Source: Pseudomonas sp. KU26590
GTDB taxonomy: Bacteria; Pseudomonadota; Gammaproteobacteria; Pseudomonadales; Pseudomonadaceae
Length of the DNA: 64,000 nucleotides
Reading direction: 5' to 3'
Assembly: GCF_026153515.1 (NCBI RefSeq)
Contig: NZ_CP110644.1
Span: 3,811,501-3,875,500 of the forward strand
Shown piece after piece: positions 14,576 to 47,707 of the stretch. The first letter of the stretch is position 1. Each line of letters opens with the position of its first letter. Below the pieces are notes generated by a model. The model searched no databases and had not been told where the DNA came from. It saw nothing but the letters and a program-made list of their open reading frames with translations. Both the position numbers and the translations under genes were made by a program.

Positions 14576-14950
14576 TTATAGCTTCTTGTCCGGGGCGTAG
14601 CTGGTCTGGTATTCCGCCAGGGTAGTGGTTAACCGGCAGATGGCATCCTGTTCCTCCTTTCCCAGGGTGCGGTAACTGCCTACCATCCACTCCTCGTTTT
14701 CGCTCAGGCCGACGATGGGCACCGGGGTGTGGCAGCCCGTCAGCACGTACAACACGTCAACACCGCGAAGGGCGACACGGGCCAGATAATCGGCCTTGGG
14801 GGTGCGCTCGCCGTTTTCGTACTTGCCCTGTGCGTTGGCTTCCACGCCACCGATTTCACCGAATGCGCGTTGTGAAAGCCCCAACCGCTCGCGCTCTTCC
14901 CTAATTCGGGCACCTATTCCACTCATTTGGATGCATAGCCTTGTTGACAT
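14576..14950 (-). CDS. Cro/CI-type helix-turn-helix repressor, prophage-like
   Basis: A 124-residue regulator. Residues 11-65 form an HTH_XRE domain (IGARIREERERLGLSQRAF, then ANAQGKYENGERTP). The C-terminal third is helical, without a LexA-type peptidase. AAGGG precedes the ATG at 14950; the longer in-frame ORF to 15268 would cross the divergent gene. With the gene at 15008 it makes a repressor/Cro-like pair sharing a 57-bp promoter region. It has no phage structural neighbours here, so it may be a remnant or a domesticated switch. Confidence 0.8.
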   Translation of the reverse strand: MSTRLCIQMSGIGARIREERERLGLSQRAFGEIGGVEANAQGKYENGERTPKADYLARVALRGVDVLYVLTGCHTPVPIVGLSENEEWMVGSYRTLGKEEQDAICRLTTTLAEYQTSYAPDKKL

Positions 14951-14971
14951 CACCCTTTCGAGTGATAGAAT
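14944..14971 (+). promoter_or_regulatory. sigma-70 promoter of the Cro-like gene
   Basis: TTGACA at 14944-14949 and TAGAAT at 14966-14971 are separated by 16 bases, a near-consensus promoter facing the 15008 gene. It overlaps the start codon of the divergent repressor gene. Confidence 0.65.
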
Positions 14972-14980
14972 CGAAATAAT

Positions 14981-15006
14981 TTGAACGAACTTGAACGGTT
15001 TTGAAC
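14981..15006. promoter_or_regulatory. triple TTGAAC operator
   Basis: TTGAAC occurs exactly at 14981, 14991 and 15001: three direct hexamers spaced one helical turn apart, between the predicted transcription start and the ATG at 15008. This is the likely binding site of the divergent repressor, of the Cro-like protein, or both. Confidence 0.6.
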
Positions 15007-15007
15007 T

Positions 15008-15238
15008 ATGCCCGGAATTCGTACTGCCGCACAAGCCAGGGCTTGGCTGGAACAGCAGGGCAAATCGGTTCAAGAATTTGCCAGGGAGCACAACGTGGAC
15101 CCGGCGACGACCTATCAAGTGTTGTCCGGGCGCAAGAAAGGGCGCCGGGGTGAGTCGCACAAAGTAGCGGTGCTGCTGGGAATGAAGATCGGCGTGATAC
15201 CCCCAGCCACCGCTTATGTGGAAGTGCCCGAGGACTGA
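15008..15238 (+). CDS. Cro-like DNA-binding protein (BcepMu gp16 type)
   Basis: A 76-residue basic protein. AQARAWLEQQGKSVQEFARE, DPATTYQVLSGRKKGRRG and a terminal HKVAVLLGMK segment match the small phage DNA-binding family typified by BcepMu gp16. It starts right after three TTGAAC repeats and is divergent from an XRE repressor, so it should act as the opposing arm of a lysogeny-type switch. I see no Mu-like genes around it. Confidence 0.75.
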   Translation: MPGIRTAAQARAWLEQQGKSVQEFAREHNVDPATTYQVLSGRKKGRRGESHKVAVLLGMKIGVIPPATAYVEVPED

Positions 15239-15364
15239 ATCAGCCTTTTGCAGTGTTGAGCGTTGCATATAAGCAGACTGGCCCCAATCAGCCCCATTGT
15301 AATTTCCAATTGAAGAACCCGACGGGTCTGAAGTAAGCTCGGCGGCATTCCACGGAGACAGACC

Positions 15365-15508
15365 ATGTTGCCTTCCCTTTCCACTCAGTTGCTCAGCACC
15401 GCCGACGGTTCACGTCTGGCTGGGCGCCCGGCTGCCTGGAATGCGACGGCGTCTACCGCTCCTGCTTCTTATTTTTATGGGTATTGGTTTAGCCACTGGC
15501 GCGCCTGA
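15365..15508 (+). CDS. aromatic-rich leader peptide 1 of the DAHP synthase gene
   Basis: A 47-codon ORF with GGAG 8 bases before the ATG. Codons 36-45 (15470-15499) read Tyr-Phe-Tyr-Gly-Tyr-Trp-Phe-Ser-His-Trp, that is 7 aromatic codons out of 10, very near the stop. Its end overlaps a possible hairpin (GGGTAT at 15479-15484 with ATACCC at 15508-15513), and a strong intrinsic terminator follows 50 bases later. This is the classical layout of a ribosome-stalling attenuation leader. The regulated gene would be the DAHP synthase at 15828. Confidence 0.75.
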   Translation: MLPSLSTQLLSTADGSRLAGRPAAWNATASTAPASYFYGYWFSHWRA

Positions 15509-15594
15509 TACCCAAGCGGCGCCCTGAACTTCGGGACGCCCACCAGAGATAACTCTCACCCCCGGTCGGCTTCCCGACCGGGGGTTTTGTTTTT
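15479..15594 (+). promoter_or_regulatory. predicted attenuator between leader 1 and the DAHP synthase gene
   Basis: Successive hairpins can form: GGGTAT/ATACCC across the aromatic codons, a shorter GGCG-CCC/GGG-CGCC hairpin near 15518-15540, and then the terminator at 15559. Ribosome stalling at scarce aminoacyl-tRNAs would be expected to shift the balance among them. The hairpins are visible; the switching mechanism is inference. Confidence 0.5.
15559..15594 (+). terminator. attenuator terminator upstream of the DAHP synthase gene
   Basis: CCCCCGGTCGG pairs perfectly with CCGACCGGGGG around a CTTC loop, followed by TTTTGTTTTT. It is a very strong Rho-independent terminator placed between leader 1 and the structural gene. 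Confidence 0.85.
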
Positions 15595-15636
15595 CTGGGC
15601 CACACATTTCTGACTGACTGATTCGAGGAACCGCAC

Positions 15637-15789
15637 ATGAACCACACCCACTATTACCGCTACGACACCGACTTCGCCTGGCGATTTAGCAACCTCCGAT
15701 CGGGACAGCCTGCCGCCTCCGATCGGTCACTGACAGGTGGCATCGCCCTGCTCACAGCCAATCCGGCCAATTGTCGAACACCCCATTAG
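15637..15789 (+). CDS. aromatic-rich small ORF, possible second leader peptide
   Basis: A 50-codon ORF with GAGGAA 6 bases before its ATG, a better ribosome site than many genes here. Residues 6-17 contain Tyr-Tyr, Tyr, Phe, Trp and Phe (YYRYDTDFAWRF). The stop is 38 bases before the DAHP synthase ATG. Two copies of CCTCCGATCGG (15693-15703 and 15716-15726) carry the palindrome CCGATCGG and can pair with each other inside the ORF. There is no T-run after it, so if regulatory it may act on translation rather than termination. Confidence 0.55.
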   Translation: MNHTHYYRYDTDFAWRFSNLRSGQPAASDRSLTGGIALLTANPANCRTPH

Positions 15790-15827
15790 GTCTGCGCGGG
15801 AACACCCGCCGACCAGGAAGCCAGCAC

Positions 15828-16913
15828 ATGAATTCGCCCGTTGTTAGCAACACCCTCATCGATCTGCCGTCCGGCGCCGTCACCCTGCATGACAGCCGCC
15901 CTGCCCCGAAACGCCTGCCCACACCGTTCGCGCTGAAACATCAGCTGCCGCTGGATGCTGCCATGACCGCGCAGGTCGCCGCCCACCGCCAGTCGATTCG
16001 CGCCATTCTCAACGGTGAAGATTCGCGCCTGCTGGTCGTCGTCGGCCCGTGCTCGATCCACGATCCCCACGCCGCCCTCGACTACGCCGAGCGCCTGGCA
16101 CGTCTGGCTGCCGAGGTCAGCGACCAGATGCTGCTGGTGATGCGCGCCTACGTCGAAAAGCCGCGCACCACGGTCGGATGGAAGGGCCTGGCATACGATC
16201 CGGCCCTGGACGGCAGTGACGACATGGCCGAAGGCCTGGCCCTGTCGCGGCAGTTGATGCGAGAAATGGTCCGGTTAGGTTTGCCCATTGCTACGGAATT
16301 GCTGCAACCGATGGCGGCAGGCTACTTCGATGACGTCTTGAGCTGGGTCGCCATTGGCGCAAGAACCACCGAATCGCAGATCCACCGGGAAATGGCCAGC
16401 GGCCTCGGTGTACCAACGGGCTTCAAGAACGGCACCGACGGCGGCATCTCCGTGGCCTGCGACGCGATCCGCTCGGCGGCCCACGCCCACCGCCATTTCG
16501 GCATGGATCCCCAAGGGCATCCCGCGATTATCGAAACGTCGGGCAATCCCGATACCCACATCGTTCTGCGCGGCGGTCACGGCGGGCCCAACTATGATGC
16601 CGCCAGTATTGCAGCAGTGAACGCCAGTCTGGCGAAGCACCGCATGGCCGCGCGCATCATGGTCGATTGCAGTCACGCCAATAGCGGCAAGGATCCGCTG
16701 CGCCAGCCGGCGGTCTTCAACGACGTGCTGCAGCAACGACTGGCCGGTGACCGGACGCTGATCGGCATGATGCTGGAGAGCCACCTGTTCGAGGGCTGCC
16801 AGCCGTTGAGTGCTTCCCTCAAATATGGCGTGTCAGTGACGGACGCCTGCCTGGGCTGGGAGTCCACCGAGCGCCTGCTGCGCGACGCCGTGAACAAACT
16901 TCGCTACAGGTAG
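15828..16913 (+). CDS. 3-deoxy-7-phosphoheptulonate synthase, class I
   Basis: First step of the shikimate pathway: phosphoenolpyruvate plus erythrose-4-phosphate to DAHP. 361 residues, in the AroF/AroG/AroH class, with VVVGPCSIHDP, EKPRTTVGWKGLAYDP, GARTTESQIHREMASG, GFKNGTDG and a late MVDCSHANSGKDP holding metal and substrate ligands. The ATG at 15828 has AGGAAG 7 bases upstream. The preceding attenuator points to feedback by aromatic amino acids; which one inhibits the enzyme itself cannot be told with confidence from sequence. Confidence 0.92.
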   Translation: MNSPVVSNTLIDLPSGAVTLHDSRPAPKRLPTPFALKHQLPLDAAMTAQVAAHRQSIRAILNGEDSRLLVVVGPCSIHDPHAALDYAERLARLAAEVSDQMLLVMRAYVEKPRTTVGWKGLAYDPALDGSDDMAEGLALSRQLMREMVRLGLPIATELLQPMAAGYFDDVLSWVAIGARTTESQIHREMASGLGVPTGFKNGTDGGISVACDAIRSAAHAHRHFGMDPQGHPAIIETSGNPDTHIVLRGGHGGPNYDAASIAAVNASLAKHRMAARIMVDCSHANSGKDPLRQPAVFNDVLQQRLAGDRTLIGMMLESHLFEGCQPLSASLKYGVSVTDACLGWESTERLLRDAVNKLRYR

Positions 16914-47268: not shown

Positions 47269-47386
47269 CTGTGCCGGATCTGCGCAAGTGCTCGGGCAGA
47301 TGATGAGCCCGGTGCCGCCCGCAAAACGCCCCTTCCCGCCACTGCATTCGCCTCCACCCGCCGAATCGTTTAGTATCGCCGCCGCC

Positions 47387-47553
47387 GGTTTCCACTCGGA
47401 ATTAATAGGGAATCCCCAGGCGCGTACTGCGCGCTGGAAGGGAACTGTCCCCGCAACTGTAGGCGCCGAGCCCTGCTTCCTGTTTGCCACTGGGTTACTC
47501 CGGGAAGGCCGAAGCAAGGCAATGAAGCGCCAGTCAGGAGACCTGCCGGCCAG
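47387..47553 (+). ncRNA. cobalamin (B12) riboswitch
   Basis: The conserved core is easy to read: AATAGGGAATC at 47404, GGGAACTGTCCCCGCAACTGT at 47439-47460 region, TTTGCCACTGGGTTACTCCG, GGGAAGGC, and the B12 box AGTCAGGAGACCTGCC at 47532. It lies 150 bases before a cobalamin-type ABC importer, which it should repress when adenosylcobalamin is bound. Confidence 0.92.
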
Positions 47554-47707
47554 CATATTCATTCACCGGCGGGGTGTCCGGGGAAGGACTCCCGTTTGCG
47601 CGTCGTGCGCGCACGCTGTGCTCGCCCTTTTCTGTGGTGTGCCTGTCGGGATGGACTTTCCAGCGCCTGCTTCGCCCAGTATTCAGGCTTTCTGGAGATC
47701 GCTGTTC

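Follow-up and report, generated by a model that had tools for sequence, protein, structure and literature searches.

A candidate two-stage, ribosome-sensed leader of a DAHP synthase gene in Pseudomonas and a likely function for the Rfam RNA P15

Attenuation of the his operon in enteric bacteria relies on six RNA segments, A to F, which pair as A:B, C:D, and E:F in the off state and as B:C and D:E in the on state. The leader described here, upstream of a DAHP synthase gene of Pseudomonas, fits this segment scheme in folding predictions; like the his attenuator, it also encodes a peptide in which codons for the regulated product are clustered, and it contains an intrinsic terminator. It differs from it in three respects: the Pseudomonas run mixes three amino acids, segment D is predicted to pair with the terminator loop together with the upper arm, and a second leader open reading frame (ORF) follows the terminator.

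Leaders have also been proposed for other DAHP synthase genes. Corynebacterium glutamicum aroF has a putative leader peptide with Phe-Tyr-Phe before the DAHP synthase gene (PMC4046766), the Acholeplasma uORFC-13-1 motif places an upstream ORF by a terminator before aroF, with the speed of Phe incorporation as the proposed signal (PMC8632094), and an aroF entry reads "Attenuator sensing tyr-tRNA," with E. coli work cited (PMC2659441). The C. glutamicum case differs from ours in that one leader is reported, with Phe and Tyr only and in another phylum, and the Acholeplasma motif in having a single upstream ORF and Phe only; the latter is likened here by layout and not by structure. Tandem leader ORFs have likewise been described: Salmonella mgtCBR has the tandem attenuators mgtM and mgtP, which a 2012 paper termed "a singular example" (PMC3641672), and induction of ermB needs two leader peptides, ermBL and ermBL2 (PMC8274638). 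With mgtCBR our locus shares two short ORFs in one leader; there each has its own signal, ATP and proline, acting on transcription, whereas the Pseudomonas ORFs are both aromatic-rich and the terminator scan gave no terminator-like site 3' of ORF2 on the + strand up to position 16000. ermB differs in that stalling is drug-induced and control is translational. DAHP synthase leaders and tandem leader ORFs are thus each known already; an earlier note on this DNA had pointed to a two-leader arrangement with two possibly different mechanisms as unfamiliar, and tandem leader ORFs as such have a precedent in mgtCBR. In the openly accessible literature searched, we found no report of a Pseudomonas DAHP synthase leader or of both traits combined.

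The locus lies on the + strand of the window, that is, the whole stretch of 64,000 nucleotides of Pseudomonas sp. KU26590 that was analyzed. A probable promoter, TTGAAG-18-TAAGCT, is predicted at 15310-15339 (+), which would put the transcript start near 15346; of 105 genus loci, 94 carry TTG and then TAAGCT ahead of ORF1, and 93 of these 94 have an 18-nt spacer. Behind a ribosome site, ACGGAGAC (15352-15359; GGAG in at least 97% of the 105 aligned loci), ORF1 (15365-15508) encodes 47 amino acids and ends in SYFYGYWFSHWRA before its stop codon (YFYGYWFSHWRA). Just as the earlier note had it, aromatic codons make up 7 of 10 (YFYGYWFSHW) directly 5' of R-A-stop, and ORF1 is alone among the 661 window ORFs of at least 30 amino acids in having at least seven F/W/Y in ten codons. 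The terminator with a T-run that had been noticed after this leader is also there (15558-15593, stem 15558-15585, from the terminator scan and the sequence): we count a 12-pair stem, 10 pairs being G-C, followed by TTTTGTTTTT, beginning 49 nt past the ORF1 stop. Overlapping terminator-like sites numbered 3 versus 0.8 in shuffles.

ORF2 (15637-15789, +; 50 amino acids, N-terminus MNHTHYYRYDTDFAWRFS) has the three traits first attributed to it, namely, its own ribosome site, CGAGGAACC (15624-15632; AGGA in at least 97% of aligned loci), six aromatics in residues 6 to 17, and a distance of 38 nt from its end to the synthase start codon (ATG, 15828). Its aromatic density is ordinary (5 in ten codons, by eye; 13 of the 661 window ORFs reach at least 5), and ORF2 is marked out by its conservation, in 109/109 loci, not by its aromatic density. 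Downstream, the consensus fold predicts a hairpin, GCGCGGGAACACCCGC (15794-15809), just 5' of the synthase ribosome site, ACCAGGAAG (15812-15820). The gene itself (15828-16913, +) encodes a 361-amino-acid DAHP synthase of the AroFGH type (NF009395, 4.8e-158; TIGR00034, 2.6e-135; PF00793, 3e-78). Elsewhere in the window, divergent phage-type regulators are found upstream, a repressor-like one at 14576-15268 (-) and a small HTH protein, phrog_925, at 15008-15238 (+), whose gene ends ~70 bases before the aro promoter, and a TTGACA-16-TAGAAT site lies at 14944-14971. A cobalamin riboswitch match is located at 47369-47564 (+), and the long frame over and after it resembles, by eye, a substrate-binding protein.

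The end of ORF1, the hairpins, and the terminator fall within a full-length match to the Rfam covariance model P15 (RF00627, "Pseudomonas sRNA") at 15466-15584 (+), with 122.4 bits versus a gathering score of 70. P15 is present in 109 of 119 sampled genus genomes, and a relative of the window's synthase lies downstream of it in 109/109 loci, all of which were fetched. Where P15 was missing, in 10 genomes, the DAHP synthase search showed only a paralogue, 52 to 54% identical to the window's enzyme, and the strain's own genome holds a second DAHP synthase, 55% identical; upstream of these 11 paralogous genes, no aromatic leader was found in the scanned stretch. P15 is tied to the DAHP synthase gene, because the two are linked in 109/109 loci and genomes without P15 show only the paralogue. 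Rfam catalogues P15 as an sRNA gene, whereas we interpret it as the final part of an attenuator leader, and the RNA is best read as the terminated leader. Of the other candidates considered, sX11 (RF02230) was rejected as a relative, at 30.1 bits versus a gathering score of 70 and with one match in 274 class genomes, at a locus where a DAHP synthase was not found. The strain's genome contains one further exact TGGCGATTTAGC, and the ORF1 core recurs with at most two mismatches at eleven places; no aromatic leader was seen at the extra copy or at the four of the eleven near-matches that were inspected.

Both leader ORFs are under purifying selection, each in its own frame only. Computed on nearest-neighbour pairs of loci, the dN/dS-like ratio of ORF1 was 0.50 in frame and 1.18 and 1.05 out of frame (67 pairs, 105 loci), and that of ORF2 was 0.60 versus 0.95 and 0.97 (84 pairs, 108 loci). 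The sensing codons TAT TTT TAT GGG TAT TGG TTT (Y F Y G Y W F; 15470-15490, +) have an aromatic residue at the first position in 97 of 105 loci and at the other five in all 105. The conservation in relatives that the earlier note had called for is found for both ORFs, with ORF2 in 109/109 loci and five of the six aromatic positions of the ORF1 run in all 105. At the three positions preceding the fixed Gly, Phe and Tyr replace one another: position -3 has 74 F, 23 Y, and 8 other residues, position -2 has 90 Y and 15 F, and position -1 has 89 F and 16 Y (105 loci). These codons mostly end in T (TTT 84 versus TTC 5 at -1; TAT 80 versus TAC 10 at -2), and six window genes show the opposite usage (TTT 21, TTC 64, TAT 20, TAC 56). 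The C-terminus of ORF1 is clade-dependent (SHWRA, SH, SHRRR, SHRRA, or SQRRA), and the end FYFGYWFSHWRA is nearly fixed across many species. In loci L043 and L060, a TAG follows His where relatives have Trp, giving a shorter ORF1 with most of the hairpin sequence kept.

The behavior of leader 1 was modeled by equilibrium folding of an RNA cut off a few bases into the terminator 3' arm. A ribosome was placed on one codon after another, and in the main run its footprint reached 11 nt past the first base of the A-site codon. Six segments emerged, all on the + strand: A (GGGTATTGG, 15479-15487), predicted to pair with B in the off state; B (GGCGCGCCTGATACCC, 15498-15513), with A or C as partner; C (GGCGCCC, 15518-15524), with B or D; D (TCGGGACGCC, 15531-15540), with C in the off state or with E plus the terminator loop in the on state; E with the loop (GGCTTCCCGA, 15568-15577), forming 9 of 10 pairs with D; and F, the terminator 3' arm. 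One scan found a terminator in 140 of 148 related loci. In the 122 loci of family f1 with a located terminator, at least 4 D:E pairs formed in 98 to 99% for every stall position between -3 and +3 relative to Gly (F/Y, Y/F, F/Y, G, Y, W, F), versus 52% with the ribosome at the stop codon and 56% without a ribosome. The corresponding values were 88 to 100%, 50%, and 75% in f3 (8 loci) and 71 to 100%, 71% (the same as for the +3 stall), and 43% in f211 (7 loci); in Acinetobacter (2 loci), D:E formed in every ribosome state. With another footprint, 12 nt past the last base of the A-site codon, f1 showed no contrast between the stop (98%) and stalled (99%) states, and the +3 stall gave 82%; the off signal of the modeled ribosome-at-stop state depends on the footprint assumed.

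To what extent the switch exceeds chance was estimated in 15 hand-picked loci by shuffling the stretch from the ORF1 stop to the terminator. Stalled D:E averaged 8.6 pairs versus 2.7 in shuffles, and in no locus did more than 4 of 40 shuffles come up to the real value; the stop state gave 5.1 versus 5.3 and the ribosome-free state 5.9 versus 3.1. Taking the lower of the stop and free states as off, 11 of these loci had a switch strength that no more than 2 of 40 shuffles equaled; in the remaining four, L097, L106, L150, and L153, it was equaled by 4, 14, 11, and 20 of 40, respectively. At the window locus, D:E was favored without a ribosome too (9.4 pairs), and the stop state had 5.0, so that the off signal there would come only from a ribosome at the stop codon. 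Segment A is changed to GGTTAT in L091 and L100, together with ATAACC, and in L095, without ATAACC. A simpler antiterminator, between the S-H-W codons and the terminator 5' arm, stood above the cut in 53/122 f1, 1/7 f211, 1/8 f3, 0/2 Acinetobacter, and 1/1 Marinobacter loci and was given up in favor of D:E, which applies more generally.

The D:E match was also compared between loci by a sequence search that lists the best complement per locus, with shuffles and swapped loops as controls. The best complement is the TCGGGACGCC/GGCTTCCCGA pair (9/10) in the window, CGGGTTGCC/GGCAACCCG (9/9) in L149, CGTGCTGCC/GGCAGCACG (9/9) in L153, and GGTTGCC/GGCAACC (7/7) in Acinetobacter L201; the commonest form, in 31 loci, has two inner mismatches, and the match is retained in other families with different letters. 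In f3, at most 1 of 30 shuffles reached the complement in 7 of 8 loci. In f1, this was so in 13 of 94 loci, the median number of shuffles doing as well was 11.5 of 30, and the score was 6.9 with own loops versus 6.4 with swapped loops. D:E covariation within Pseudomonas is weak. Since the f1 control is weak and that of f3 is clear, the case for D:E rests on folding energy and f3, not on Pseudomonas covariation.

Turning to the second leader, TGGCGATTTA (W-R-F) occurs in frame after a start codon in 109/109 loci, and in L054 the frame extends past the usual end. The ORF2 loci were selected by the W-R-F motif, a requirement that lost none of the 109. The codons TGG CGA TTT (15679-15690 together with the following AGC, +) are identical in 108/108 aligned loci, and the next codon is AGC or ACC in 107/108; CGA is uncommon among Arg codons (8 of 161 in six window genes). 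Tyr codons stand shortly 5' of WRF in most ORF2 versions across families, and the remaining N-terminus is variable. The string TTT AGC is common to both leaders (15488-15493 and 15685-15690), right after Trp or Trp-Arg codons, its AGC being fixed in ORF1 (105/105) and present in 70/108 in ORF2. Six bases after the codon following WRF, helices of 7 and 6 pairs cross as a predicted H-type pseudoknot (15697-15741, +; 15697-15703 with 15719-15725 and 15712-15717 with 15736-15741). In 41 hand-picked sequences of 80 distinct ones, L157 with a 3-base insertion being among those left out, 93.8% of 533 cells were paired (3/500 shuffles as high) and two pairs were changed on both sides (11/500 as high); the number of further pair types did not go beyond shuffles (436/500), one control, slid by +3, scored higher for covariation, and 26 of the 41 have pair 9-33 open. 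Covariation of the candidate pseudoknot appears modest. The pattern was found in 116 of 139 module loci and was absent in 23; in some of these, inspection by eye suggests a plain hairpin at this place.

Two leaders with two mechanisms had been envisaged at the outset, and this idea is retained in part. ORF2 is a conserved second leader; the translational mechanism gained no support from folding, where ribosome position on ORF2 left access to the synthase Shine-Dalgarno sequence unchanged (mean P(unpaired) of 0.38 to 0.43 in all states, 109 loci, pseudoknot-free folding). The idea that the TGGCG segment masks the ribosome site of the synthase was rejected, as there was hardly any coevolution (-11.8 for own versus -11.5 for swapped sites, 97 distinct loci); shuffled sites gave -9.4 on average, and L073 has a 14-base match. 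Frameshifting at CGA TTT AGC before the pseudoknot was set aside as well, with no slippery heptamer seen by eye.

Across the order, P15 was found in 21 of 244 genomes, from 11 genera and three families, and the ORF2 motif accompanied it in 9/9 genomes of f1, 3/7 of f211, and 5/5 of f3. Of two further f3 genomes that lack a P15 match, L245 shows the ORF2 motif and L256 only an ORF1-like frame. Among the 80 named relatives listed, out of at least 592, both motifs occur in 6 of 7 halomonad loci (Halomonas, Modicisalibacter, and Chromohalobacter), the exception being Salinicola L159 with ORF1 only, and in 13/13 loci of Pseudomonas and Stutzerimonas (L161 to L173); the other 60 of the 80 have neither. 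ORF2 is absent or degraded, with an aromatic ORF1 kept, in G431, G523, G588, G628, Salinicola L159, and Marinobacter L197; the latter has one leader, and the filter showed none at the other two of three Marinobacter loci. In halomonads ORF2 comes near the synthase start: its stop overlaps the start in L150 and lies at most 5 nt away in L151 and L152, a position that favors coupling in these three loci. ORF1 with its terminator is the more constant part of the module and ORF2 an old but dispensable one, its absence probably reflecting loss. In both listed Acinetobacter loci (L194 and L201), a short ORF ending in YYFWQFR or YFYFWQFR is followed by a terminator, and between this and the synthase lies another ORF, which contains NFYWSYFSQ or NGYWFYFSQ. 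This pair hardly resembles the Pseudomonas sequences and forms an analogous arrangement. In Chloroflexi L177 and L224, a single aromatic leader with a terminator (YGYWYFFTG and YCYYFFTG) recalls halomonad ends such as YWYWFTGGAPAG.

Altogether, we propose that a two-stage, ribosome-sensed leader controls the DAHP synthase, a reading to which we give a probability of about 0.68. The computation backs its conservation, its linkage, the coding selection, and the stall-dependent D:E pairing in the folding, whereas the start site, every effect on expression, and the second stage as a whole are inferred. Attenuation with a mixed Phe/Tyr/Trp read-out, as the earlier note had suspected, draws on the same evidence and on the F/Y interchange, with weak D:E covariation in the genus, and ORF1 very probably acts as the transcription on/off switch. 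Transcription would begin near 15346, and a ribosome would translate ORF1. When charged tRNA-Phe, -Tyr, or -Trp is short, the ribosome would stall on Y-F-Y-G-Y-W-F and cover A; B would then pair with C, leaving D free to pair with E, i.e., the upper 5' arm of the terminator plus its loop, and read-through would follow. When aromatics are ample, the ribosome would reach the stop codon and leave, A:B and C:D would form, and transcription would terminate near 15593, the short RNA being P15. If this scheme is right, a shortage of any one aromatic tRNA would allow read-through. In the second stage, ORF2 would be carried on read-through RNA only, with its Tyr run and Trp-Arg(CGA)-Phe just 5' of the putative pseudoknot, and slowed ribosomes would probably retune synthase output via mRNA fold or stability before the start codon. 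We lean towards a second aromatic-sensing step at ORF2, because Tyr codons before WRF persist in most versions and the rest of the N-terminus varies. A stronger form would be a dual checkpoint in an old Pseudomonadales module, with ORF1 gauging Phe/Tyr/Trp charging for transcription, ORF2 regauging it on each read-through mRNA, the pseudoknot braking the ribosome at Trp-Arg(CGA)-Phe and thereby setting synthase translation, and P15 as a by-product; we hold this form to be speculative and rather unlikely.

ORF1 and the terminator could also regulate alone, the translation of ORF2 serving to stabilize the mRNA or to couple ribosomes and not to sense aromatics. The loci named above that keep ORF1 with ORF2 absent or degraded fit such a single stage, as do the overlapping or adjacent ORF2 stop in L150, L151, and L152 and a synthase Shine-Dalgarno sequence unaffected by ribosome position in folding. 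It explains less well why Tyr codons before WRF are retained in most ORF2 versions despite an otherwise variable N-terminus and why TGG CGA TTT is invariant in 108/108 loci although CGA is rare (8/161), and we regard it as a serious possibility, if a somewhat doubtful one.

Further from our two-stage reading are explanations in which leader 1 is not an attenuator sensing tRNA charging. That P15 is a trans-acting sRNA or a metabolite riboswitch with incidental reading frames would agree with its Rfam type (Gene) and with its being counted among the sRNAs detected by Livny et al. (PMC2375449) and suggested as a riboswitch on synteny grounds (PMC2527527). Selection in the ORF1 frame only, F/Y interchange at aromatic codons, and the strict DAHP synthase linkage speak against incidental frames and make this very unlikely, even if the terminated RNA may have an additional role in trans. 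The nearly fixed end FYFGYWFSHWRA in many species could instead be that of a ribosome-arrest peptide that responds not to tRNA charging but to the free aromatic amino acids themselves or to a metabolite of the pathway. Such a peptide is hard to reconcile with a C-terminus that varies (SH, SHRRR, SHRRA, or SQRRA before the stop), with the F/Y swap before Gly, and with the same bases serving A and B pairing in folding, and we consider it the least probable of these readings.

Our analysis provides a likely function for a catalogued sRNA, P15, and points to a probable control of shikimate pathway entry in a large bacterial group. It also offers a compact natural case of a first leader that may integrate three amino acids and of a second that may retest the signal after the transcription decision.
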